Source: a virus
DNA: 64,000 nucleotides
Virus record (IMG/VR): IMGVR_UViG_3300012147_001040
Location: 1-64,000 of that record
Reading direction: 5' to 3' (one strand)
Below are positions 10,272-57,315 of this stretch, piece after piece (the first letter of the stretch is position 1; the number at the start of each line of letters is the position of its first letter). A program made the translations under genes and the position numbers. The notes under the pieces were generated by a model. That model made no database searches. It saw nothing but the letters and a program-made list of their open reading frames with translations, and was not told where the DNA came from.

Positions 10272-10299
10272 AATATAGTACATTTTATGGATTTGTCAA
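10272..10299 (-). promoter_or_regulatory. Vegetative-type promoter (TTGACA-16-TATATT)
   Basis: TTGACA at 10299-10294 and TATATT at 10277-10272, 16-base spacer, just overlapping the HNH stop codon at 10296 and directed at the ligase gene. Nearly identical, with flanks, to the promoter at 48668-48695, which also follows an HNH nuclease gene. Confidence 0.87.
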
Positions 10300-11159
10300 G
10301 TAAATATTTGATCCTTAACACATCTAAGTTCATAATACCCACAACCAGGGAGCTTGTGTACGTCCTTATGACATGTTTTGCATAAAGTAATGGTGTTAGC
10401 CACATCATTTCCTAAACGTGGATTCTGGGTGTATCCTTCGATGTGATGGCAATGAAGCGGAGCTTCCTTTTGGATGGCTCCGCAAATTTGGCACTTCCAG
10501 TTGTCACGCTCAAAACACATTTGTCTAACTAGAGGATTAACTTCGCGGGATGATGCAGGTTTGAATTCTTTAGGCCATAATTTTTGATTATACACAGGAC
10601 AAGCTTCTTTACAATTATCTGAACAGTATAATGAACATTCACCTTCCATCTGTCCTTTAATTGTTTTAATTCTTGAACTTACTTCTATATTTGTAGGTAT
10701 AAAGTATTTACCACAGTACCTACATTTAACTTCTAAAGAGATACCATCTTTAGAAAGTCTGGGTGACTCATCAACAGTGAGTTTATCTTTATAAGTTTTA
10801 TAAATAGCAAAATTATTATTGTATTCAATACTTCGTGCTTTTATTACTTCTTTATTCATTTCTTTATATATTTTATTTTGTTTGTTTATTTTTATTTTAT
10901 TATGTGTTCTATATTTATATTTTCTACTGCTTATTTCTTTTTTATTGTTATTATAATATTCTTTGTGTTGTTTATTTATTTTTTCTTTGTTATTTTGATA
11001 ATATAATTTCATAAATAAAGAGTGTTCTTTTTTATTATTATAATAATAACCTTTCTTACAGTCTTTACATATTGTATAAATACCATCTTTGGAATTCTTA
11101 TCCTTACTGAACTCACTAGAATCTTTAACTTCTTTACATTTTGTACACATTTTTTCCAT
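10296..11159 (-). CDS. HNH homing endonuclease (type A, zinc-module family)
   Basis: A 287-residue nuclease. Seen: an N-terminal zinc knuckle (CTKCKEVK then CKDCKK), a long basic Asn/Lys helix rich in NNKK, a zinc module starting LTVDESPRLSKDG and holding CRYCGKYFIP and YCSDNCKEACP, and a C-terminal HNH domain (CQICG, HCHHIEGY, CKTCHKDVH). The catalytic HH pair is intact. It is a freestanding homing-type nuclease inserted between the nucleotidyltransferase operon and the ligase gene. It is paralogous to the genes at 48704 and 15986. Its ribosome site overlaps a leader hairpin (11170-11204). Confidence 0.87.
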   Translation of the reverse strand: MEKMCTKCKEVKDSSEFSKDKNSKDGIYTICKDCKKGYYYNNKKEHSLFMKLYYQNNKEKINKQHKEYYNNNKKEISSRKYKYRTHNKIKINKQNKIYKEMNKEVIKARSIEYNNNFAIYKTYKDKLTVDESPRLSKDGISLEVKCRYCGKYFIPTNIEVSSRIKTIKGQMEGECSLYCSDNCKEACPVYNQKLWPKEFKPASSREVNPLVRQMCFERDNWKCQICGAIQKEAPLHCHHIEGYTQNPRLGNDVANTITLCKTCHKDVHKLPGCGYYELRCVKDQIFT

Positions 11160-14374: not shown

Positions 14375-14695
14375 TTAAACATCAGCGTTATAAATATTAG
14401 AACCATCTTCGTCTGCTACAACCAATCTACCGTTATATTCAATATTTCTTTTATAAGGTCTTGGGTTAAATGAATCTGTTTTAACAGCATAATGTATCTG
14501 ACATCCTGCCACTAGCATGTTACCAATCTCAAGATACCAATTAGTTGACCCTTTATTAGTTTTAATTCCTAAAGTTTCTTCATCGTTTCTAATACCTTTA
14601 ACCGTACCGAATACAGCTCTGTACATTTGACCATCTGGAGCAAAAAACCAACCATCAGTAGTCACTACTGCTTTTTGTCCTTCTTCTATTTTCAT
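14375..14695 (-). CDS. Conserved phage protein of unknown function
   Basis: A 106-residue, beta-rich protein: KAVVTTDGWFFAPDGQMY, RAVFGTVKGIRNDEETLGI and NWYLEIGNMLVAGCQIHYAV. Proteins with this TTDGWFFAPDG opening recur in large phages, without known role. It overlaps the Hef-like gene's stop codon by 4 bases, so is translated with it. Confidence 0.65.
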   Translation of the reverse strand: MKIEEGQKAVVTTDGWFFAPDGQMYRAVFGTVKGIRNDEETLGIKTNKGSTNWYLEIGNMLVAGCQIHYAVKTDSFNPRPYKRNIEYNGRLVVADEDGSNIYNADV

Positions 14696-15624
14696 TTTAA
14701 TCCCTCTTCCCTATATTTCTTTACGTCTAGTAAAAATGTTTTTACACCGGCATTTGGAATAGAAAAACATTTCCCTAAGCGAATCTGCTCCATTACCCAC
14801 TTATGGCGCATAGGCTCTCTGCCTTTTACTTGCCCAGTTTCTATCCAATAATTCATAAAACCACCTTTAGAATAATTAACAAACTCAAAACCTAAAACAT
14901 CCATACTATTACCAATATTATGATCATAATCTGAATAAAATTTTAATGTCTCTACATTTACTGTATGTTTTCCTATTTCTATAGTTTTATAATTTTTTAT
15001 AAAATGTTTTAGTAATTTAGAAGCACCACCCATAACGTAATAAAATTTTAAAGTACCAACTCTAAGTACTTCTATCATAACATTTGTTTTCCCAAAGAAA
15101 TTTCTTCCAAAGGTATATAACATTAATAGGGTACCTTTTTTTACTCCATTTTTATCTTTTTTAGCATACAAACCTAAACTTAAGCTAGCTCCTCTTTTAC
15201 CATAAAAACAATTTTCTGCTTCAAAAGCCCTACCCTCTTTTGTACCTACCTCTTTAATTATACAGTCCCTAGCATAAAATTTATTGGGGGTTACTCCGTA
15301 AACATGAAGTATTTGCGACTGTAAAACTGATTTTTTTCTTGGGTCATTCCATTCGAAGTCTTTAATCCACAATTTAAATGAATTATTATCTTCGGCTTCC
15401 TTGGATTTATTATAAAAGTAATCCTTATTTACACCTTCAATTCCATACTTAGGATACTCTATGGCAAAATCCAACGAGGGTACATACTCAATTTCGTATC
15501 TTCTTTTTTCAGGACCCGCATCATAAAATAAACAAAAATTCCCATACTCAGTACTATACTCCACCCCATTGTCTTCTAAAAATGTCTTTATTTCTTCCAA
15601 ATTTTTAATATCGTTTTCTGTCAT
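14692..15624 (-). CDS. Hef-like (Vsr-fold) homing endonuclease family protein with GNAT-like domain
   Basis: A 310-residue protein. The N-terminal half follows the Hef/EDxHD nuclease order: strand YEIEYVPSLDFAIEY, a helix DYFYNKSKEAED, IKDFEWND, the linker ILHVYGVTPNKFYARDCIIKEV. The usual ELxxxIEFDGxxWH signature is eroded (EYPKYG, no clear His), so nuclease activity may be lost. The C-terminal half carries the GNAT-like module that often follows such nucleases and is related to Mom: YTFGRNFF, MGGASKLLKHFI, FYSDYDHNIGNS, LGFEF, GGFMNYWI. It is transcribed from promoter 15697-15724. Assignment rests on remembered family patterns. Confidence 0.6.
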   Translation of the reverse strand: MTENDIKNLEEIKTFLEDNGVEYSTEYGNFCLFYDAGPEKRRYEIEYVPSLDFAIEYPKYGIEGVNKDYFYNKSKEAEDNNSFKLWIKDFEWNDPRKKSVLQSQILHVYGVTPNKFYARDCIIKEVGTKEGRAFEAENCFYGKRGASLSLGLYAKKDKNGVKKGTLLMLYTFGRNFFGKTNVMIEVLRVGTLKFYYVMGGASKLLKHFIKNYKTIEIGKHTVNVETLKFYSDYDHNIGNSMDVLGFEFVNYSKGGFMNYWIETGQVKGREPMRHKWVMEQIRLGKCFSIPNAGVKTFLLDVKKYREEGLK

Positions 15625-15971: not shown

Positions 15972-15999
15972 AATATAAACATCCTTTATGTTTTGTCAA
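15972..15999 (-). promoter_or_regulatory. Vegetative-type promoter (TTGACA-16-TATATT)
   Basis: TTGACA at 15999-15994 and TATATT at 15977-15972, spacer 16. It overlaps the end of the HNH gene (stop at 15986) and points into the gene-poor stretch 15971-15725. Confidence 0.85.
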
Positions 16000-17011
16000 G
16001 TATTTTATTTTCTGTTCTACAGTTATTAACACTTTTCTTCTTTAGTTCCGGCAGCGTACACCCGTATAGTTGATGTGCCACATTATAATGACAGTCTTCA
16101 CACAAGCCCCATAAATTATCTTTATCAAGCTGTAAATGGGGATGAGTAGATACTGCTTTTTCATGGTGTAGATCTGTTATTTTATTTTCACCACACATTT
16201 CACATATACCATTAGCTCTTTTTATTATTTCTTCACGCAGTTCTTGTGGTATAAATTCTCTAAGAGATTTAGTAGGTATAGCCCCATGACTGGCATATAT
16301 CGGACAAGCTAACTTACACTCTTCAGAACAATAAAGACTATGTTCACCTTGACCTATATTTTCTAAAGCATACACTCTATGATATACCTGTTGTTTAGTT
16401 GGAATAAAATAATTTCTACAGAACCTACATTTTACCTTTAACGAATTACCGTCTTTAGCTAGTTTAGGGGATTCTTCTTTAGTTAATTTATAATGAGTAT
16501 TAGTATATATAGCAGAAGAATTTTTATATAATTTTTTGTATTCTGTTAGATCTTTTGCAATACTTATTTTTTTATTACCAGATAAACATTTTTTAGAACA
16601 ATTTTTAGAGCAAAATAACCATCGTTCTGATCTACCTATTGAATTTAATGCATTTAGTCTATTTGATACCCTTACTGTAGTTGGAATAAAGTAGTTTCTA
16701 CAATATTTACATTTTACTTCTAGAGATACTTCATCTTTAGCACATCTTGGTTGTTCATCTATTGTTAATTTTAACCCATATAAATTATATTCAGCAGGTT
16801 TTGTTTGAAAAGATTTTTGACTTTGTCTTCTAAACAATTTTTGTTTTTTTGTTAAAATCCTAGGATTATTCTGCCGATTTTCTTTTTGTTTTTTGGCTTC
16901 ACATACTTTACACCAACTTCCTACACTGAAAGATCTCTTCGCATATGAACCTACTTTCCAAAATTCCCACAGTGCTTTATGTTTTTTACATTTTGTACAA
17001 ATTTTCCACAT
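15986..17011 (-). CDS. HNH homing endonuclease (type A, two zinc modules)
   Basis: A 341-residue nuclease. Order: N-terminal knuckle CTKCKKHK and CKVCEAKK; a first zinc module (about 70-150: LTIDEQPRCAKDE, CKYCRNYFIP, FCSKNCSKKC); a second copy (about 175-245: LTKEESPKLAKDG, CRFCRNYFIP, YCSEECKLACP); then the HNH domain CEMCG, DLHHEKAV, CEDCHYNV. The catalytic HH is present. It shares the zinc module with the genes at 10296 and 48704 but has it twice. Its ATG overlaps the GIY-YIG stop (TAATG), so the two nucleases are coupled. Confidence 0.85.
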   Translation of the reverse strand: MWKICTKCKKHKALWEFWKVGSYAKRSFSVGSWCKVCEAKKQKENRQNNPRILTKKQKLFRRQSQKSFQTKPAEYNLYGLKLTIDEQPRCAKDEVSLEVKCKYCRNYFIPTTVRVSNRLNALNSIGRSERWLFCSKNCSKKCLSGNKKISIAKDLTEYKKLYKNSSAIYTNTHYKLTKEESPKLAKDGNSLKVKCRFCRNYFIPTKQQVYHRVYALENIGQGEHSLYCSEECKLACPIYASHGAIPTKSLREFIPQELREEIIKRANGICEMCGENKITDLHHEKAVSTHPHLQLDKDNLWGLCEDCHYNVAHQLYGCTLPELKKKSVNNCRTENKILDKT

Positions 17012-17988
17012 TATTTATATCCCCATTTAAATCCACCTGCGGTTTTTTGTTTCCCTCTACACACCTTATAAATACCTTCATAATGAATACCAATTATTTT
17101 AGCAGCTTTCATTGCAGATGGGTATTCTTTAATGAAATTTCCTTCCAGGTCGTACTGTATTGTAGGTTTACTCACAGCTTTTTTTAATTTATTAATATTA
17201 TCTTTACTTGGTGTTCTTTTAATATATTCTGGAACGTTTTGTTTTTCTAATGGGTCATCTATATACCGCCATAAAAATTCTTTAGGTAATCTGGTCTTCC
17301 CTTCACAGTTATTTAATATTAAAGTAGCACTTAAACCAGTGTCTTGTGAAGCTTTTGTAATAGATGAGTACCCTTTAATTAAATCCCCATCTAAATCATA
17401 TTGTAAAACAGCCTTTGGTTTTAGTAAAGTATTCCTAATTAAATTAATATCTAATTTTTTCTTAAAGCCATCAGATTTTAATCGCCACACAAACCCACCA
17501 ACCTGTTTAACTTTTTTACCGTTACAACAATTAGATATATTTGGTCTATCAAGTCCTAATTTTTCAGCCGCACATCTAATAGACTTCCAAGCCTTAATAA
17601 AATTACCATTTAAATCATATTGTAGTACCGCTTTATTATTCTTTCTAACTCTACTGTTTATAGTATTTTCAGATTGTTTATGTCCTGAACAACCTCCGCC
17701 CCCTGACGTAGAGTTATACCCGAAATGTTTATTAAAAGTATTATATTTATTTATATAGTAACACTCAAAAGTATTTAATTCAGCAATATTGTTACATCTA
17801 ATTATAATATCAATCTTAAAAGCGTCCAGTCCGTACTTCTTCATTGCCCTATACAAATAGTAATCTTCTCCATTTATTGCGGATCTACGATGTTCATTCA
17901 TACGTTTTGTAAAATTAATAGTTTGCCCTATGTATGACTTACTATTTATTGTATTAGTTAATTTGTAAATAACTCCAAATATTTTCAT
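17011..17988 (-). CDS. GIY-YIG homing endonuclease with NUMOD-type repeats
   Basis: A 325-residue nuclease. The first about 90 residues are the GIY-YIG domain: GVIYKLTNTINSKSYIGQT, then the conserved Arg in FTKRMNEHRR and a Glu in TFECYYINKY. The rest holds repeated DNA-contact units of the NUMOD1/helix-turn-helix kind: VLQYDLNGNFIKAWKSI, VLQYDLDGDLIKGYSSI and IQYDLEGNFIKEYPSA, each followed by a helix and a GGF.W-like end. The start MKIFGVIY (17988) has AAGGAG 9 bases upstream inside a strong hairpin; an upstream ATG at 18027 is less likely. Freestanding homing nuclease next to the ribonucleotide reductase gene. Confidence 0.88.
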   Translation of the reverse strand: MKIFGVIYKLTNTINSKSYIGQTINFTKRMNEHRRSAINGEDYYLYRAMKKYGLDAFKIDIIIRCNNIAELNTFECYYINKYNTFNKHFGYNSTSGGGGCSGHKQSENTINSRVRKNNKAVLQYDLNGNFIKAWKSIRCAAEKLGLDRPNISNCCNGKKVKQVGGFVWRLKSDGFKKKLDINLIRNTLLKPKAVLQYDLDGDLIKGYSSITKASQDTGLSATLILNNCEGKTRLPKEFLWRYIDDPLEKQNVPEYIKRTPSKDNINKLKKAVSKPTIQYDLEGNFIKEYPSAMKAAKIIGIHYEGIYKVCRGKQKTAGGFKWGYK

Positions 17989-17998
17989 AATATTTAAC

Positions 17999-18045
17999 TC
18001 CTTATTAGTAATATTTATATAACACATACCTACTACTAATAAGGA
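17999..18045 (-). promoter_or_regulatory. Hairpin masking the ribosome binding site of the GIY-YIG gene, with an embedded TATAAATA
   Basis: A perfect 12-bp inverted repeat (17999-18010 with 18034-18045, 22- to 23-base loop). On the minus-strand RNA, five of six bases of the AAGGAG (18003-17998) are in the 3' arm. The loop holds TATAAATA (18019-18012), the T4 late-promoter core; a start about 6 bases further would give an RNA lacking the 5' arm. The arrangement is the one known for T4 I-TevI. Promoter function is inference. Confidence 0.6.
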
Positions 18046-18072
18046 AGTTAGTTAAATATATATATATATATA

Positions 18073-21000
18073 CTAACTACACCCAGCATATCCACAAGAG
18101 GGACAAGTAAAGCATCCACTCTGAAATATAATGTCTTTAGATCCGCAATCTGGGCAGGACATACCCAGTTCTCCATTTAAATCTGTTACATAGCCCATAA
18201 GGTGTTTTTTTAATCTAAAAACAAGAGTGCCTGGTCCAGCATTGTCTACTCCACCTAACGCCTTAACAATGTCAATCATAGGAGTATTATGACGAAAAAG
18301 AAACCCAAGCATACGTCCTATTTTTACATGATTAGATTGTCTAGCAAACTTCTTTTCTACCTCTTCTAATTTCTCATCATCTAATTTATATTTTTTAGCT
18401 ACTTTTTTTAACTCATCAATTGCATCCATAGTTATTTCTGTCTTAGAAACAGTGTTTGTTGAAATAAAACACGCAAATGGTTTTCTCATCTCAATATCCA
18501 TAAATGAAAAATGTACGTACCATTTAGAACCATTACCACGTAAAATGACCCCTTTGGATGGGTACTCTTCAGGAAGTTTAACAACATCATGTATAATATT
18601 ACCATTTTCATGTCCCTTAAAAGCATCCAAAAACTCTTCTTGCCTTTCTTTAATCTCTTTAACCTTATCTTTCTTTTTAGACTCAAGAACAGCTATAGAA
18701 GTACCTTCACGATAAGTAGTACACCCTTTAATTCCTTGCTTATGGACCTTACTATACAACGCTTTAAAATCATCAAAAGATATGTCATTGGGTAAGTTGA
18801 TCGTTTTACTACTTGACTGATCAATATACTTACTTACAGTATTCAAAATAGTAAAATGTTCTTGTACAGACAGCTTTGTAGCGGTAGTAAATTCAGTTTT
18901 GCCGTGCTTCAAAGCCTGATAATATCCATAATCTCTAATAGTTTCAGCTTTACATAATCCTTGATTCTTATCTATTCTATATTCACCATCTGTAGATATA
19001 AGAACAATTTCATCAGCAATACTTTCTTCTTTTAAATAATCTGTTTCAAACCATTCTCCTTTATGTATAGATGGGTATTTAAAATCCATAGGCTTTCCTT
19101 CTATCCTATTCCATCTAGTATACTCTGTAGAAAATACTGGTTCTAACCCACCAGATACATTGCCAGCAAGAATTGCTAGAGTACCAGTAGGAGCTATAGC
19201 AGCAACGGCACTATTACGTAAACCGTATTTTCTAATAAGGTCGAGTGTCTCCTCGTCTAAAACTTCCCCATGTTTCACATAACCAGTCTCTAATAATTTT
19301 TCATCATAAAGGGCAAAAGGACCCCTTTCTTTAGCAAGCATGGCGGACTTTTTATATGCGGTATTCATAAACAAATGGAGCATCCATTCTGTAAACTCAA
19401 CACTTTCTTTTCCACCATAACGAATGCCCATCATCATAAACAAAGAAGCTAGTCCACAAAAACCAAGACCAATCTTTCGTTTCATCTTAGAAGCATCTTC
19501 ATACATAGGCAATGGGTAATCTGATATGTCGATTATATTATCTAAAGCTTCAACCATAATATTTATATCTAACATAAGAAGTTGGTCATTAAATATACCT
19601 GTTTCAATGTCGTAGTAACGCACCAAATTTAAGGACCCTAAATTACATACATCACCAAGGTCGTACAAAGCCCCTTTGTGTTCTACAATACCGGTGTTTC
19701 CGGGTACTTCTCCACATTGTCTGGTACTAAACCCATTACAAATAACAGAGTGATAATCTTCTTGGGTTAAACAATACACATCTTCTTTTCCTATAAACTC
19801 TATTGCCTTAATTTTTTCATAGAATTTTTGTTTGTGTATAATTTTGTCTTCTTTCCAAGAAAAAAACTTATCATTTTTATACGGAAGCATGAATCCTATT
19901 TGGCTCATAAAACTATCTCTACTACCGCTAAAAAGTATCAACTCATAATTATCTTTACACCAATATTTCTTTAGCCCTCCCAGTCCATCAGGAAGTTTTC
20001 TATAGTCAGCTTTTCTACGTAAGTTAATATTAGATCTAATACCAAAATTAGATAGTAAAATTTGTACATCTTTAATTAGGCTTGGCATAGAACTATTTAA
20101 TCTAATAGAACAACCTGACCTAATAGAACTAATGTTCACAGTACCGTCCGCCTGAAATAACCCCTGAAGATACCCTTTTACAAAATCCTTAGTTCCCTTA
20201 AATATAAATTCTGGGACTTCTTCTTTAATAGACAATAAACCAAACTCTTCAAAAATTCTGTAAAGAACCGCTGATTTAATCTCATACATATCTTTACTCT
20301 TAATATAACGAGCTTTTACTGTAGTATCTGAATAGTGTCCTCCGTATTCTCTTATCAAAGTATTAGTGGTCTCTACAAGTTCATCTATTAATACATTATC
20401 TTTCCCCCACAATCTAATGTAAACTTTATTATTCTTACAATTGTATTTTTTATCCCAACCTTCGTATATAGTACCATCACCTGCTATTATTCCTATAAGT
20501 CTCCCAAAAGATAAATTACCGTTCTTCCCAAAACCACATAACCCAGAACAAATATCTACGCTATCCCCAACCTTAAGGTCCTTTAATTCTTTTGGACCTT
20601 CGGGGGTATTAAACTCGTGGTAATCTGTAGTTTTAATTTCATATCCCGCAGAAGTAGTCAATTTAAATACATCTCTATCTTCACCAGTCTTATATACATG
20701 AGTAGTCTTTAGCAGTGTGGTGCCTATAGAACCATCTATTTGTCTATTATCAGCATAAACCTCATTAGACCCACCTTCTTTATACAAGTCATATATACGC
20801 TCCATACCTTTAGATGTATGTAATAACATGTCTCCTGTAAAACAAGGATTAGTTGCGCTAATACTACTACTCAAGTAATTAACATTATCCATTTTTCTAA
20901 TTGTGTCAATAAACAATAACCCTGGTTCATTTCTATTATAACTACTCTTCAAAAGAAGTTCCCACAAATAATTAGCTTTTACTGTACGATATACTACAGT

Positions 21001-21741
21001 AGGATAACCTTTATCTGCCCACTTCTCGAAGTTACCATCCCACTCTTTCTCATACTTTTCAAAATTAATATCTGGAAACCAAAGATCCCAATCAAGATCA
21101 TTTTCCACACAGTACATAAATGCGTCTGATATTAAAACCGACATATTCATTTTAGTCAGTCTATTAGGAGTGGATTTAGTTGTAATAAACTCCTCAATGT
21201 CTGGGTGATTTACATTCATCGTTACCATAGTAGCACCTTTTCTAATACTATTTTTAGACGGCACCCCTTGATACGAATCATTTTTATCAACACTACCTGA
21301 TGTAATAACTTCAGAAACTTTATCAAAAATCTCTAGGAACTTTATTGCTCCTGGTGAAGCTACACCTATCTTCCTAATCAACGTCTTAGCTGGCCTAAAA
21401 AAATTGGCACAGAACCCAACTCCTCCTTCTGTTTTCAGCGTGCACGCATACTTAGTAACCATATCCATAATCCCTTCTAATGAGTCTGGATCTTTTGTCA
21501 CAGACTCAATGAAGCAATTAAAAAGTGTCAACCCTTTTTCATCTACACCTATATTAGAATTAATTCTTCCACCAAATAAAGTCCTAAAATCTAAAATTGA
21601 CCCTTTTAGTTGGTGCTTTTTATCCCCGTCATCTGGGAAAATAGAGGACGAAATCCGTTCACAAAAACCATCGTATGTCTCATCTTTATACTTATACTTA
21701 TTCTCCCAAATCTTTTCTTGAAAACTGTCTACAAATGTCAT
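18073..21741 (-). CDS. nrdJ: Class II (cobalamin-dependent) ribonucleotide reductase with intein
   Basis: Reduces ribonucleotides to deoxyribonucleotides. The precursor has 1222 residues; removal of the intein (residues 300-675) leaves about 846. Seen: redox Cys76 in LFNCFIESV, the SATNP/CGEVPG active-site loop split by the intein, so the +1 cysteine of splicing is also the thiyl-radical cysteine, the barrel strands ending AAIAPTGTLAILAG, and a C-terminal CPDC...CPSCGYAGC, usual in NrdJ. No small subunit or activase gene is in the window, consistent with class II. It is cotranscribed after polymerase and dUTPase. Confidence 0.93.
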   Translation of the reverse strand: MTFVDSFQEKIWENKYKYKDETYDGFCERISSSIFPDDGDKKHQLKGSILDFRTLFGGRINSNIGVDEKGLTLFNCFIESVTKDPDSLEGIMDMVTKYACTLKTEGGVGFCANFFRPAKTLIRKIGVASPGAIKFLEIFDKVSEVITSGSVDKNDSYQGVPSKNSIRKGATMVTMNVNHPDIEEFITTKSTPNRLTKMNMSVLISDAFMYCVENDLDWDLWFPDINFEKYEKEWDGNFEKWADKGYPTVVYRTVKANYLWELLLKSSYNRNEPGLLFIDTIRKMDNVNYLSSSISATNPCFTGDMLLHTSKGMERIYDLYKEGGSNEVYADNRQIDGSIGTTLLKTTHVYKTGEDRDVFKLTTSAGYEIKTTDYHEFNTPEGPKELKDLKVGDSVDICSGLCGFGKNGNLSFGRLIGIIAGDGTIYEGWDKKYNCKNNKVYIRLWGKDNVLIDELVETTNTLIREYGGHYSDTTVKARYIKSKDMYEIKSAVLYRIFEEFGLLSIKEEVPEFIFKGTKDFVKGYLQGLFQADGTVNISSIRSGCSIRLNSSMPSLIKDVQILLSNFGIRSNINLRRKADYRKLPDGLGGLKKYWCKDNYELILFSGSRDSFMSQIGFMLPYKNDKFFSWKEDKIIHKQKFYEKIKAIEFIGKEDVYCLTQEDYHSVICNGFSTRQCGEVPGNTGIVEHKGALYDLGDVCNLGSLNLVRYYDIETGIFNDQLLMLDINIMVEALDNIIDISDYPLPMYEDASKMKRKIGLGFCGLASLFMMMGIRYGGKESVEFTEWMLHLFMNTAYKKSAMLAKERGPFALYDEKLLETGYVKHGEVLDEETLDLIRKYGLRNSAVAAIAPTGTLAILAGNVSGGLEPVFSTEYTRWNRIEGKPMDFKYPSIHKGEWFETDYLKEESIADEIVLISTDGEYRIDKNQGLCKAETIRDYGYYQALKHGKTEFTTATKLSVQEHFTILNTVSKYIDQSSSKTINLPNDISFDDFKALYSKVHKQGIKGCTTYREGTSIAVLESKKKDKVKEIKERQEEFLDAFKGHENGNIIHDVVKLPEEYPSKGVILRGNGSKWYVHFSFMDIEMRKPFACFISTNTVSKTEITMDAIDELKKVAKKYKLDDEKLEEVEKKFARQSNHVKIGRMLGFLFRHNTPMIDIVKALGGVDNAGPGTLVFRLKKHLMGYVTDLNGELGMSCPDCGSKDIIFQSGCFTCPSCGYAGCS
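19717..20844 (-). mobile_element. Intein in the ribonucleotide reductase (LAGLIDADG)
   Basis: 376 residues from CFTGDMLLHT to CNGFSTRQ, inserted in SATNP/CGEVPG. Block B-like TTDYHEFNTP precedes two LAGLIDADG motifs, LIGIIAGDGTI and LQGLFQADGTV. The C-terminal residue is Gln rather than Asn, and Arg replaces the usual penultimate His. Such C-terminal Gln inteins are known and can be active. Confidence 0.92.
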
Positions 21742-21750
21742 ATTCTTCTC

Positions 21751-22962
21751 CTAATATCTTTTATTTACTATTGCTTGATACCACGCTTTATGCCAGCTCC
21801 TATCTTTGTTCGCTTTACTATTACAAGAACGACATATGGTTATTAAATTACTAGGTTTACAGTCTTTCTTGTCGTAATTAATGTGATGGATAGTTAAATC
21901 GTTTGGATTTTTAGAATTACAGTACGGATTTAAACATTTATTTCCATCACGATTTCTTATATCTTTTTTATAATCTAAGTCTTTCCAGACTTCACAATAA
22001 AGCTCGAAGGATTTACCTCCTCTCCATTGTTGATTACCAGCACCAAAACTATCCAAGTGTGAACAAACCGGACACCTATGACCATCCGCCCAATCATAAA
22101 ACCTAATTGTACCTTTATGTCCTAAAGGGCATATATAGTTTAGCTTTGTTTTATTGTTTTTATATTCACCACTTAAAAGGGTATAACCCTCCAATTCAAA
22201 AAAACTTCTTACCTCTTTAATAGTTTTCTTCATTTTACCAGAACATTCTGGGCATCTATTACCTTGTTTCCAATTACCCCAAACCATACTACAGTGATGC
22301 CCTTTATCACAAACATAATCAAGTTTAGAGTTATTGTTAATATATTCAGTGCTTAGTAATATGTAGCCTGCCTCCTTAAAAGAATTTTTTACAAGATCAT
22401 AGGATGGTTTAACATTATCACTACAATAAAAACATCTTTTACCTTGTTGCCAATCATTCCACATAATACTGTGATGATGCCCTTTTGGGCATTTAAAAAT
22501 CAATTTAGTATGTGCATTTTTATACTTTTCACTAAGTAAAATGTAACCTTCTTTTTTAAAAGAATTTTTAATAAAAGAAAGGCTATGTCTTCTGTTATTT
22601 ATTGAGCACTTATTACATCTACTACCAGACTTCCAATTTTTCCAACTTATCGAACCTACATGCCCATTAACACATCTATAATCTAACTTTGTGTGTGCAT
22701 TTTTATAACACTCACTCAATAAAAAGTAGCCTTCTTTATTAAAGGCGGTTTTTATATCACGTATATCAGGCTTAATAACTCCTGAACAGTACGGACATCT
22801 ATAACATGTTTGCCAATTTGCCCAAGTAATACTGTGTTTATGTCCATTAGGGCATATATAATTTAATTTAGTGTGAGCATTTACATACTCCTCACTAAGG
22901 AGGGTATAGCCCTCCTTCTCAAAAGATTTTTTAACAAAACTATATGTTAATTTTTTTGACAT
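21751..22962 (-). CDS. HNH homing endonuclease with five zinc-ribbon repeats (type B)
   Basis: A 403-residue nuclease with five tandem repeats of about 60 residues. Each has a helix F-KEGY-LLS-EY-N, then CPNGHKHS, ITW-NW and RCPYC, so each should hold one zinc through CxxGH...CxxC. The C-terminal domain (SFELYCEVWKDLDYKKDI, NRDGNKCLNPYC, LTIHHINYDKKDC, CRSCNSKANKD) is an HNH nuclease with intact HH. Its ATG overlaps the dUTPase stop by one base and it ends 10 bases before the reductase gene. Paralogues: 23527, 43995, 52784. Confidence 0.88.
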   Translation of the reverse strand: MSKKLTYSFVKKSFEKEGYTLLSEEYVNAHTKLNYICPNGHKHSITWANWQTCYRCPYCSGVIKPDIRDIKTAFNKEGYFLLSECYKNAHTKLDYRCVNGHVGSISWKNWKSGSRCNKCSINNRRHSLSFIKNSFKKEGYILLSEKYKNAHTKLIFKCPKGHHHSIMWNDWQQGKRCFYCSDNVKPSYDLVKNSFKEAGYILLSTEYINNNSKLDYVCDKGHHCSMVWGNWKQGNRCPECSGKMKKTIKEVRSFFELEGYTLLSGEYKNNKTKLNYICPLGHKGTIRFYDWADGHRCPVCSHLDSFGAGNQQWRGGKSFELYCEVWKDLDYKKDIRNRDGNKCLNPYCNSKNPNDLTIHHINYDKKDCKPSNLITICRSCNSKANKDRSWHKAWYQAIVNKRY

Positions 22963-23526: not shown

Positions 23527-24585
23527 TTAATACCTATAATCATATCGTCTATACAATAGCGCTTGATACCAAGACTTATGCCAGTTCCTGTCTGTATTTG
23601 CTTTAGAGTTACAAGAACGGCACACCGTAATTAAATTACTAGGCTTGCAGTTCTTTTTATTATAATCAATGTGGTGAATTGTTAGGTCGTTTTTATTCGA
23701 TGAATTACAATATGGATTCAAACATTTATTATCATCCCTATTTCTTATATCCTGTTTGTATTCTTTGTCTTTCCAGGCTTCACAATAAGGTTCGAAGGAT
23801 TTTCCACCTTGCCAATTAGGGTGCCCTGAACCACATCTAGTTATTGATAGGTTTATACCTTTACAGGTAGGGCACCTATAACCAGTTCTCCAATTACCCC
23901 AAGTAATACTATGTCCGTGCCCTTCAGAACAAACATACTCAAGTTTAATATGTGCATTTTCATACTTTTTACTTAATAAGATATAACCTTCTTTTTTAAA
24001 CTCCTCTTTTATATATTCAATTGTTTTTTTATTATTACCAACACAATAAGGACATCTACAACCTGATACCCAATCCCTATAAGTGATACTATGAGAGTGC
24101 TTATTAGGACATATGTAATCAAGTTTAGTACTGCTATTTTTATACTCCTCACTCAGAAGAATGTACCCCTCTTTTTCTAAAGAATTCCTAACTGTATCAA
24201 AACTCGGCTTCAAGTTACCATGACAGTAGTAACAACGGTTTCCCGAAGCCCAATCATCCCATCTTATTGAGTGTTTATGCCCTTTAGGACAAATATATTC
24301 TAGTTTTTGTTTATTATTTTTATAAACAGTAGTTAATAAAGTGTACCCTTCATTATAGAAAGCCTCTCTTATCTTATCTAATGACAGTTTTCTCTTATCG
24401 AAGTTACAAAACCTACACCTATGTCCTAATAACCAATTACCCCAAGTAATACTATGATAATGACCTCTGGGACACCTATAATCAAGTTTGTTGGTATACC
24501 CCTCGTATTCAGTACTAAGTAAGGTGTATCCTTCTTTTTTAAAATACTCTTTAATGAGTGTAATATTGTACTTCTTATTAGCCAT
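23527..24585 (-). CDS. HNH homing endonuclease with four zinc-ribbon repeats (type B)
   Basis: A 352-residue paralogue of the genes at 21751, 43995 and 52784. Four repeats (starting YNITLIKEYF, LSLDKIREAF, SFDTVRNSLE, TIEYIKEEFK) each carry CPxGHxHSITW-NW and a CxxC. The HNH end reads NRDDNKCLNPYC, DLTIHHIDYNKKNC, CRSCNSKANTDRNW. The start MANKKYN at 24585 lies one base after the polymerase stop, with AGGA inside the polymerase end. The frame is open upstream to 24615. It separates polymerase from dUTPase. Confidence 0.88.
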   Translation of the reverse strand: MANKKYNITLIKEYFKKEGYTLLSTEYEGYTNKLDYRCPRGHYHSITWGNWLLGHRCRFCNFDKRKLSLDKIREAFYNEGYTLLTTVYKNNKQKLEYICPKGHKHSIRWDDWASGNRCYYCHGNLKPSFDTVRNSLEKEGYILLSEEYKNSSTKLDYICPNKHSHSITYRDWVSGCRCPYCVGNNKKTIEYIKEEFKKEGYILLSKKYENAHIKLEYVCSEGHGHSITWGNWRTGYRCPTCKGINLSITRCGSGHPNWQGGKSFEPYCEAWKDKEYKQDIRNRDDNKCLNPYCNSSNKNDLTIHHIDYNKKNCKPSNLITVCRSCNSKANTDRNWHKSWYQALLYRRYDYRY

Positions 24586-43994: not shown

Positions 43995-45035
43995 TTAATA
44001 ATTATAATTATATCGTTTATTTAATACCGCCCGATACCAAGCTTTGTGCCAGTTTCTATCTTTATTGGCCTTAGAATTACACGAACGGCATACTGTAATT
44101 AAATTTGACGGACTACAATTCTTTTTATTATAATCAACATGATGTATTGTTAAATCATTTGGATTTTTAGAATTACAGTATGGGTTTAAACATTTATTTC
44201 CATCTCTATCACGAATGTCTTGTTTGTATTCTTGGTCTTTCCAAGCTTCACAGTAAGGTTCAAAGGATATTCCACCTTTCCAAGAGTTATTACCAGAACC
44301 AGATATCCTAATAGACCAACAAGTAGGACATCTATATCCAGTTTTCCAATCACTCCATGTAATATAATGCACATGACCAAAAGAACATCTATAACTCAAC
44401 TTGGTTTTATTATTTACATAATTTTTACTCAGGAGGACATATCCCTCCTTTTCAAATTCATTTTTAATATAATATATATCGTGTCTAACATTTCCTGCAC
44501 AATACTTGCACCTATATCCTTGCTTAAAATTACCAAACGTCATAGAAGTTTCATGACCATTAGGGCATACACACTCCAATTTAGTATTAATATTTACATA
44601 CACATTAGATTTTAATATATAACCTTCTAATTTAAAAGCAAGTTTAACATCTTCTATAGTAGATTTCCCTTGTCCAGTACAATAAGGGCATCTATGTCCT
44701 GTTGACCAATTAAACCAAGTAGTACCGTGTTCGTGCCCATTTGGGCAAGTATAATTAAGTTTTTGTCTATTATTTATATACTCTTCACTAAGTAAAGTGT
44801 ACCCCTCATCTTCAAAAGATTTTTTTATAAATTCTATATGTAATTTTATATTTCCAGCACACGAAGGGCATCTATGATTTGCTGACCAATTTTGCCATGT
44901 AATATTATGACGATGACCCTCAGGACAAATATATTTCAGCTTTGTTTTCGAATTAACATACTCACTACTTAATAATTCATAACCCTCCTTCTCAAAACTT
45001 CCCTTAACAAATTCATAGGTTAACTTTTTTGGCAT
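43995..45035 (-). CDS. HNH homing endonuclease with four zinc-ribbon repeats (type B)
   Basis: A 346-residue paralogue starting MPKKLTYEFVKGSFEKEGY. Four repeats (LTYEFVKGSF, HIEFIKKSFE, TIEDVKLAFK, DIYYIKNEFE) with CPEGH/CPNGH...CPxC zinc pairs, then an HNH domain (RDRDGNKCLNPYC, DLTIHHVDYNKKNC, CRSCNSKANKD). Placed between the RecB-like nuclease gene and the first glycosyltransferase. Confidence 0.88.
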   Translation of the reverse strand: MPKKLTYEFVKGSFEKEGYELLSSEYVNSKTKLKYICPEGHRHNITWQNWSANHRCPSCAGNIKLHIEFIKKSFEDEGYTLLSEEYINNRQKLNYTCPNGHEHGTTWFNWSTGHRCPYCTGQGKSTIEDVKLAFKLEGYILKSNVYVNINTKLECVCPNGHETSMTFGNFKQGYRCKYCAGNVRHDIYYIKNEFEKEGYVLLSKNYVNNKTKLSYRCSFGHVHYITWSDWKTGYRCPTCWSIRISGSGNNSWKGGISFEPYCEAWKDQEYKQDIRDRDGNKCLNPYCNSKNPNDLTIHHVDYNKKNCSPSNLITVCRSCNSKANKDRNWHKAWYRAVLNKRYNYNY

Positions 45036-57287: not shown

Positions 57288-57315
57288 AATATAACACAGA
57301 AATGCTACTTGTCAA
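57288..57315 (-). promoter_or_regulatory. Vegetative-type promoter (TTGACA-16-TATATT), distal of tandem set
   Basis: TTGACA at 57315-57310, TATATT at 57293-57288, spacer 16. The -35 lies 4 bases past the tail gene stop codon (57319). Confidence 0.88.

Follow-up and report, generated by a model that had tools for sequence, protein, structure and literature searches.

Hairpins that regulate a homing endonuclease at the level of translation are documented in bacteriophage T4. The genes for I-TevI, I-TevII and segB, as well as e and soc, are documented to be under hairpin control: the ribosome-binding site is hidden in RNA initiated upstream, and a late promoter is located at the hairpin itself (PMC2988022, PMC3014915). 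In Aeromonas phage Aeh1, mobE, an HNH enzyme encoded inside nrdA of this T4-like phage, is described together with a late promoter (PMC2988022). A comparable arrangement exists in the insertion sequence IS200, where an anti-read-through stem-loop occludes the ribosome-binding site of the transposase and a second stem terminates incoming transcripts (PMC3196728). Here, we describe a hairpin that precedes a GIY-YIG homing endonuclease gene in a large phage and compare it with these systems.

Results

The endonuclease gene and its surroundings

The window (the whole 64-kb stretch of DNA analysed) is 100% identical to a stretch of the 237,910-bp viral contig IMGVR_UViG_3300028364_000014 (G001), whose coordinates equal the window position + 173293. 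A DNA similarity search of the window against known phages gave no match, and Rfam and tRNA searches across it gave none either. Essentially all genes of the window lie on the minus strand and have good Shine-Dalgarno sequences. The neighbourhood is devoted to replication and nucleotide metabolism and contains a clamp loader, a DNA polymerase, a dUTPase, an intein-bearing ribonucleotide reductase, a 5′-nucleotidase and several homing endonucleases. The replication genes of the window are interspersed with an unusually large number of genes resembling homing endonucleases, of the HNH type and in some cases with CapR-homology repeats (10296-11159, 14692-15624, 15986-17011, 21751-22962, 23527-24585 and 43995-45035). 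Elsewhere in the contig, a Clp-type AAA ATPase gene (G001 167339-170491, minus strand; locus L026:7339-10491) is split by a Hint/LAGLIDADG intein, the second besides that of the reductase, and a Ro60/TROVE-domain RNA-binding protein is phage-encoded (G001 97716-99338, plus strand; locus L022:17716-19338).

The reductase gene with its intein (18073-21741, minus strand; Ribonuc_red_lgC 4.2e-97, Intein_splicing, LAGLIDADG_3) lies directly upstream of a gene for a 325-aa freestanding GIY-YIG homing endonuclease with three NUMOD1 repeats (17011-17988, minus strand; start codon ATG at 17988-17986). Both the GIY-YIG catalytic domain (Pfam 33.3 bits, cut-off 22.6) and the NUMOD DNA-binding repeats (NUMOD1, 83.1 bits) exceed the Pfam cut-off, and phrog_314 (homing endonuclease) matches the product at 1.7e-30. 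The gene is outside any group I intron, as there is no Rfam match in the window and both flanking reading frames are intact. The initial annotation regarded this enzyme as unrelated to I-TevI, which holds for all but the GIY-YIG domain, to which their relatedness is confined.

A predicted two-part hairpin pairs the whole Shine-Dalgarno sequence

The leader between the reductase and endonuclease genes is 84 nt long. The 12-bp perfect hairpin that had been reported to cover five of the six bases of AAGGAG is confirmed. Its 5′ arm, the anti-Shine-Dalgarno TCCTTATTAGTA, spans 18034-18045 and its 3′ arm, TACTAATAAGGA, which includes AAGGA of the Shine-Dalgarno sequence, spans 17999-18010 (these and all following leader features are on the minus strand). 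The 23-nt loop (18011-18033) holds an in-frame ATG at 18027 and, at 18019-18012, the T4-late-like octamer TATAAATA, just as previously annotated. RNAfold adds an 8-bp lower stem that the initial annotation had missed. Its 5′ half, UAUUUAAC (18051-18058), pairs with GUUAAAUA (17991-17998), which extends to just before the start codon. The lower stem is separated from the 12-bp stem by a 5-nt bulge and pairs the sixth base of AAGGAG (17998-18003), so that all six bases are paired in the full-length leader as predicted.

The hairpin has a minimum free energy of −27.8 kcal/mol with a z-score of −3.06 (RNAfold). Opening the Shine-Dalgarno sequence, computed in an 80-nt leader as naked RNA at 37 °C, costs 11.1 kcal/mol compared to a phage median of 1.45 kcal/mol, and ranks second among 276 genes of the 237-kb phage, the starts of which were called by a simple script. 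The phage's only costlier Shine-Dalgarno sequence (11.3 kcal/mol) belongs to a 105-aa gene of unknown function (G001 149921-150238, plus strand; locus L025). The observed cost was reached by 4 of 1000 shuffles in which AAGGAG was fixed and the upstream part was shuffled. RNAs with a 5′ end past the 5′ arm are predicted to open the site at ~0 kcal/mol, while longer transcripts require 9-12.6 kcal/mol; the geometry proposed initially, in which a transcript begun at the loop would lose the 5′ arm, is therefore right. A search for the exact stem in 2.9 million viral contigs found it in this phage's own contig only. The hairpin that hides the Shine-Dalgarno sequence of the endonuclease gene is confirmed to be real and beyond chance.

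Applied to T4, the same measure places e (13.9 kcal/mol), I-TevII (11.3), I-TevI (11.1) and segB (9.4) on top, with most other genes below 4 kcal/mol. The opening cost of the window endonuclease equals that of I-TevI. The measure misses I-TevIII, whose annotated T4 start is without that structure.

The hairpin is found where the endonuclease is found

Reductase homologues in viral contigs form two groups, with and without a GIY-YIG gene or its remnant at the 3′ junction. This junction is polymorphic: the endonuclease is present in the window and in locus L028, decayed in L029 and missing from other relatives, giving three orthologous junctions in all, one of them with the decayed gene. The L028 reductase is 67% identical to that of the window and is followed by an intact 269-aa GIY-YIG gene with NUMOD3 and NUMOD1, and the L029 reductase (64% identical) is followed by a 59-aa GIY-YIG remnant. 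Both leaders are predicted to fold into a hairpin that hides AAGGAGG; opening the site costs 13.3 kcal/mol in L028 and 14.4 kcal/mol in L029. Each of the three orthologous costs was reached by 3-5 of 1000 shuffles, and all three lie above the maximum of 8.6 kcal/mol found for the 197 other genes of the surveyed loci that were measured.

The stem pairs of the window and L028 were compared by anchoring on the Shine-Dalgarno sequence, as an automatic alignment of the three leaders misplaced L028. Four stem positions have changed on both sides with pairing kept (G-C/U-A, A-U/C-G, U-A/A-U and U-A/G-U), and other positions show one-sided changes to G-U. Part of the conservation of the 5′ arm follows merely from its complementarity to the Shine-Dalgarno sequence. 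The three orthologous junctions and the paired substitutions between the window and L028 point to conservation of the stem pairing by selection. The initial comparison with I-TevI, based on a freestanding GIY-YIG gene whose ribosome-binding site is buried in a hairpin, is thus strengthened by the conservation of the structure in two further phages, with compensatory changes, and by its similar energy.

The other relatives with a readable 3′ junction have neither the endonuclease nor a Shine-Dalgarno-hiding hairpin; there, the reductase gene is followed by a nucleotidase or another ordinary gene. A few of the endonuclease-less relatives have terminator-like stems at this junction. As the hairpin occurs only where the endonuclease is present, it travels with the endonuclease cassette and not with the reductase.

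Promoters and the sigma factor of the phage

The promoters that stand out in this phage are of the TTGACA-N16-TATATT/TATAAT type (9 before genes vs 1.0 expected). The TTGACA-N16-TATATT(AT) sites on the minus strand of the window are very uniform and almost all on the coding strand (e.g. at 57315, 57237, 48695, 42681, 32902, 28941, 15999, 15724, 13606, 10299, 1231 and 738), and they probably mark operon starts. The nearest strong promoter-like site upstream of the endonuclease, TTGACA-N16-TATATT at 28914-28941 (minus strand), is a candidate start of an operon whose transcript would read through into the endonuclease gene. The next site of this type (15972-15999, minus strand) falls at the end of the HNH gene that follows the endonuclease gene. 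No strong promoter was found on the coding strand from 28941 to 15999, and none in the endonuclease leader, so the endonuclease would most simply be a passenger of a ~13-kb replication transcript. We infer that it is part of the reductase-containing operon and that the transcript reading through into it enters from the reductase gene.

Several candidates for a late-promoter signal were rejected. A bias of TATAAATA towards one strand in the structural module is not such a sign, since all copies are intragenic and other A+T-rich words are similarly biased. A variant, AATAAATA, is over-represented before structural genes ([ACT]ATAAATA, 13 vs 2.4), but it is an improbable late promoter: its positions scatter between −18 and −76 and many lie within AAAT runs, whereas the T4 motif is fixed at −32 to −36. 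Crude motif discovery before structural genes returned only A+T-rich words, e.g. TAACTAAT.

The phage encodes a 265-aa sigma-like protein (G001 133639-134436, plus strand; locus L024:13639-14436), the gene of which adjoins a RuvB-like gene. The protein matches phrog_351 (RNA polymerase sigma factor) at 1.8e-11 and the T4 late-sigma family weakly (E 0.015), and its orthologues in two relatives, the L028 phage included, contain Pfam Sigma70_r2 above the cut-off. The best matches of its predicted structure, which is of moderate confidence (pLDDT 72.7), are sigma factors such as sigma-B, sigma-28 and sigma-A over nearly the full chain, with TM-scores of 0.2-0.3 that are low and make the domain placement unreliable. 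As modelled, the phage sigma factor appears to resemble the complete sigma-70/sigma-28 types rather than gp55, which is devoid of region 4. The search for a gp55-like factor suggested by the initial annotation has thus yielded, in a possibly incomplete contig, a sigma-like gene, although one of a different apparent type. A 1155-aa protein encoded elsewhere (G001 113069-116536, plus strand; locus L023:13069-16536) has weak matches to both large subunits of RNA polymerase (Rpb2 domain 6 and Rpb1 domain 2) and may be a YonO-like, single-chain RNA polymerase of the multisubunit type.

A proposed model of endonuclease silencing and its alternatives

Considering the anatomy, energetics and compensatory conservation of the hairpin, its association with the endonuclease, and the lack of both from the other relatives, we propose that the hairpin most probably prevents read-through reductase mRNA from being translated into the endonuclease and travels with the endonuclease cassette, a reading to which we assign a probability of roughly 0.77. 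The endonuclease gene, having no strong promoter of its own, would be carried on the replication and nucleotide metabolism transcript. In any transcript derived from upstream, the leader would fold into the two-part hairpin, pair the whole Shine-Dalgarno sequence and stop ribosomes from starting on the endonuclease gene, which would amount to repression in vivo. If the leader did not fold in this way, the polymerase and the reductase would be accompanied by a DNA-cutting enzyme. Release may come about through a weak internal start in the loop or through RNA processing, or expression may simply stay at a permanently low level.

Two alternatives assign the repeat a function that is not translational. 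As the hairpin is located directly after the reductase stop codon, it could be a 3′-end element of the reductase mRNA (a terminator, a 3′ protection element or an RNase III site) that hides the ribosome-binding site incidentally. This is very improbable: the A+T-rich stem has no U tract, there are 0 terminator-like sites in 16900-18400, and the hairpin tracks the endonuclease, being missing in reductase relatives that are without it. The perfect 12-bp inverted repeat of the window could also act at the DNA level, as an operator for the endonuclease or for some other repressor, considering that I-TevI autorepresses via an operator overlapping its late promoter (PMC2988022). However, one arm is exactly the Shine-Dalgarno sequence in three of the three phages, and the pairing persists by way of G-U pairs and internal loops, all of which fits an RNA element rather than symmetric DNA and makes the operator the least probable of the explanations considered.

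The remaining alternatives retain the silencing of read-through RNA and concern its release. In the full T4-type switch put forward by the initial annotation, TATAAATA is a late promoter, and late RNAs begin within the hairpin and, being without the 5′ arm, are translated. The octamer is at −31 from the endonuclease ATG, near the place of the late motif in T4 (−34/−21 in e, −26 in I-TevII and −32 to −36 before most late genes), RNAs of this kind are predicted to free the site, the L029 loop has a 7/8 match, TATTAATA, at about the same position, and a sigma factor is encoded by the phage. Nevertheless, the L028 loop contains nothing resembling TATAAATA, the exact octamer is absent from the L029 loop, and the sigma factor matches complete sigma-70/28 structures, unlike gp55. 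The octamer is unremarkable in this phage (94 copies in the 237-kb contig): 5 copies vs 4.5 expected are found within 80 nt upstream of genes, and 0 vs 1 expected before structural genes, where enrichment had been anticipated, whereas the same count in the T4 late region, our positive control, gives 8 vs 0.5. All coding-strand copies in the structural module (12 of 12) are inside open reading frames. The lack of enrichment is one of the two outcomes that the initial annotation had named as speaking against its proposal. With TATAAATA neither conserved nor enriched, and the prominent phage promoters being of another type, a T4-type late promoter at the hairpin is unsupported and the full switch appears very improbable. 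A start by the host sigma factor at an extended −10 in the loop (TGTGnTATATnAATAT), yielding a short, freely translated transcript at a low level, is also unlikely, though less so. Its motif occurs in the loops of both the window and L029, promoters of the TTGACA-TATATT type are in use in this phage, and a metagenomic TnpB-like gene described below has the −10 of a promoter inside its hairpin; on the other hand, TGTGnTATATnAATAT is absent from L028 and lacks a matching −35, the phage has few extended −10 motifs, with hardly any enrichment before its genes, and a promoter scan shows nothing beginning in the loop. For release, we favour permanent low-level expression over a weak host-sigma start at the extended −10, and the latter over a T4-type promoter.

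Shine-Dalgarno-hiding hairpins in other phages

Among other homing endonucleases found by similarity, 1 of 26 has an opening cost of at least 6 kcal/mol, compared to 5.6% of background genes, and there is no clear excess outside the three orthologues. Viral contigs were also scanned blindly for 8-bp hairpins that precede an ATG and cover TAAGGAGG exactly. The 86 stretches obtained comprise 37 distinct genes with products of 110 aa or more, for which homing endonuclease families were the commonest PHROG matches. Six of these 37 genes are homing-type endonucleases (L139, L140, which equals L028, L149, L154, L174 and L180), with L149 and L154 assigned partly by eye. The 63 control genes (AGGAGG-type Shine-Dalgarno sequence, same loci) have no homing family among the matches listed, which comprise 25 families, and none by local search. 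Counted among the matches listed, the difference between 6/37 and 0/63 has a Fisher p of 0.002 (0.005 without L140). L174 and L180 look T4-related, and the L180 hairpin contains TATAAATA, as the known T4 device predicts. This survey suggests that Shine-Dalgarno-hiding hairpins may favour phage homing endonucleases generally, but the sample is small, the listed control matches cover 25 families and some members were assigned partly by eye, which makes the pattern only a lead. A general and repeatedly evolved self-silencing of freestanding phage homing endonucleases, extending beyond T4 relatives, not bound to late promoters and similar to the anti-read-through hairpins of insertion sequences, is a tentative extrapolation that we consider possible but doubtful.

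Two loci of the scan have unusual layouts. In a T4-like contig (L174:1550-1610), one palindrome between a divergent HNH/NUMOD3-like endonuclease and a gene 53 homologue hides both Shine-Dalgarno sequences. A seventh gene of the blind scan, L152, is an IS605 OrfB (TnpB)-like fragment, and its Shine-Dalgarno-hiding hairpin (L152:726-828) contains the −10 of a perfect (12/12) TTGACA-N17-TATAAT promoter. By analogy, L152 may embody the logic of I-TevI built with a sigma-70 promoter.

Discussion

The element described here shares with I-TevI, I-TevII and segB of T4 a stable hairpin that pairs the Shine-Dalgarno sequence of a GIY-YIG homing endonuclease, at an equal opening cost, and, in the window phage only, a similarly placed T4-late-like octamer. 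It differs in that the window phage is not T4-like, the octamer is neither conserved nor enriched and no gp55-like sigma factor was found in the possibly incomplete contig; furthermore, the window endonuclease is freestanding and carries NUMOD1 repeats. The hairpin has been kept by compensatory change and the supposed late promoter has not, so that the two halves of the I-TevI model come apart. Selection appears to act on the hiding of the ribosome-binding site even where no late promoter is evident, which suggests that the primary job of such a hairpin may be to silence a DNA-cutting mobile gene inside the operon of another.

Aeh1 mobE, as described, likewise encodes a freestanding homing endonuclease, is associated with a ribonucleotide reductase gene and has its ribosome-binding site covered by an RNA hairpin, but the window gene is of the GIY-YIG family and is placed after a different reductase (PMC2988022). 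The parallel with insertion sequences concerns the function of the structure. Anti-read-through hairpins are found in IS10 and IS50 as well as in IS200, and in these elements, as in the window, a stem-loop denies ribosomes access to the gene of a mobile DNA enzyme in RNAs entering from outside; those hairpins guard transposases, and IS200 adds its second, terminating stem. Judged by its predicted fold, the window hairpin is a member of the class of structures that sequester ribosome-binding sites, and it parts from the T4 switch at the late promoter. A control device documented in T4-like phages would hereby be extended to an unrelated large phage with another type of reductase and other promoters.
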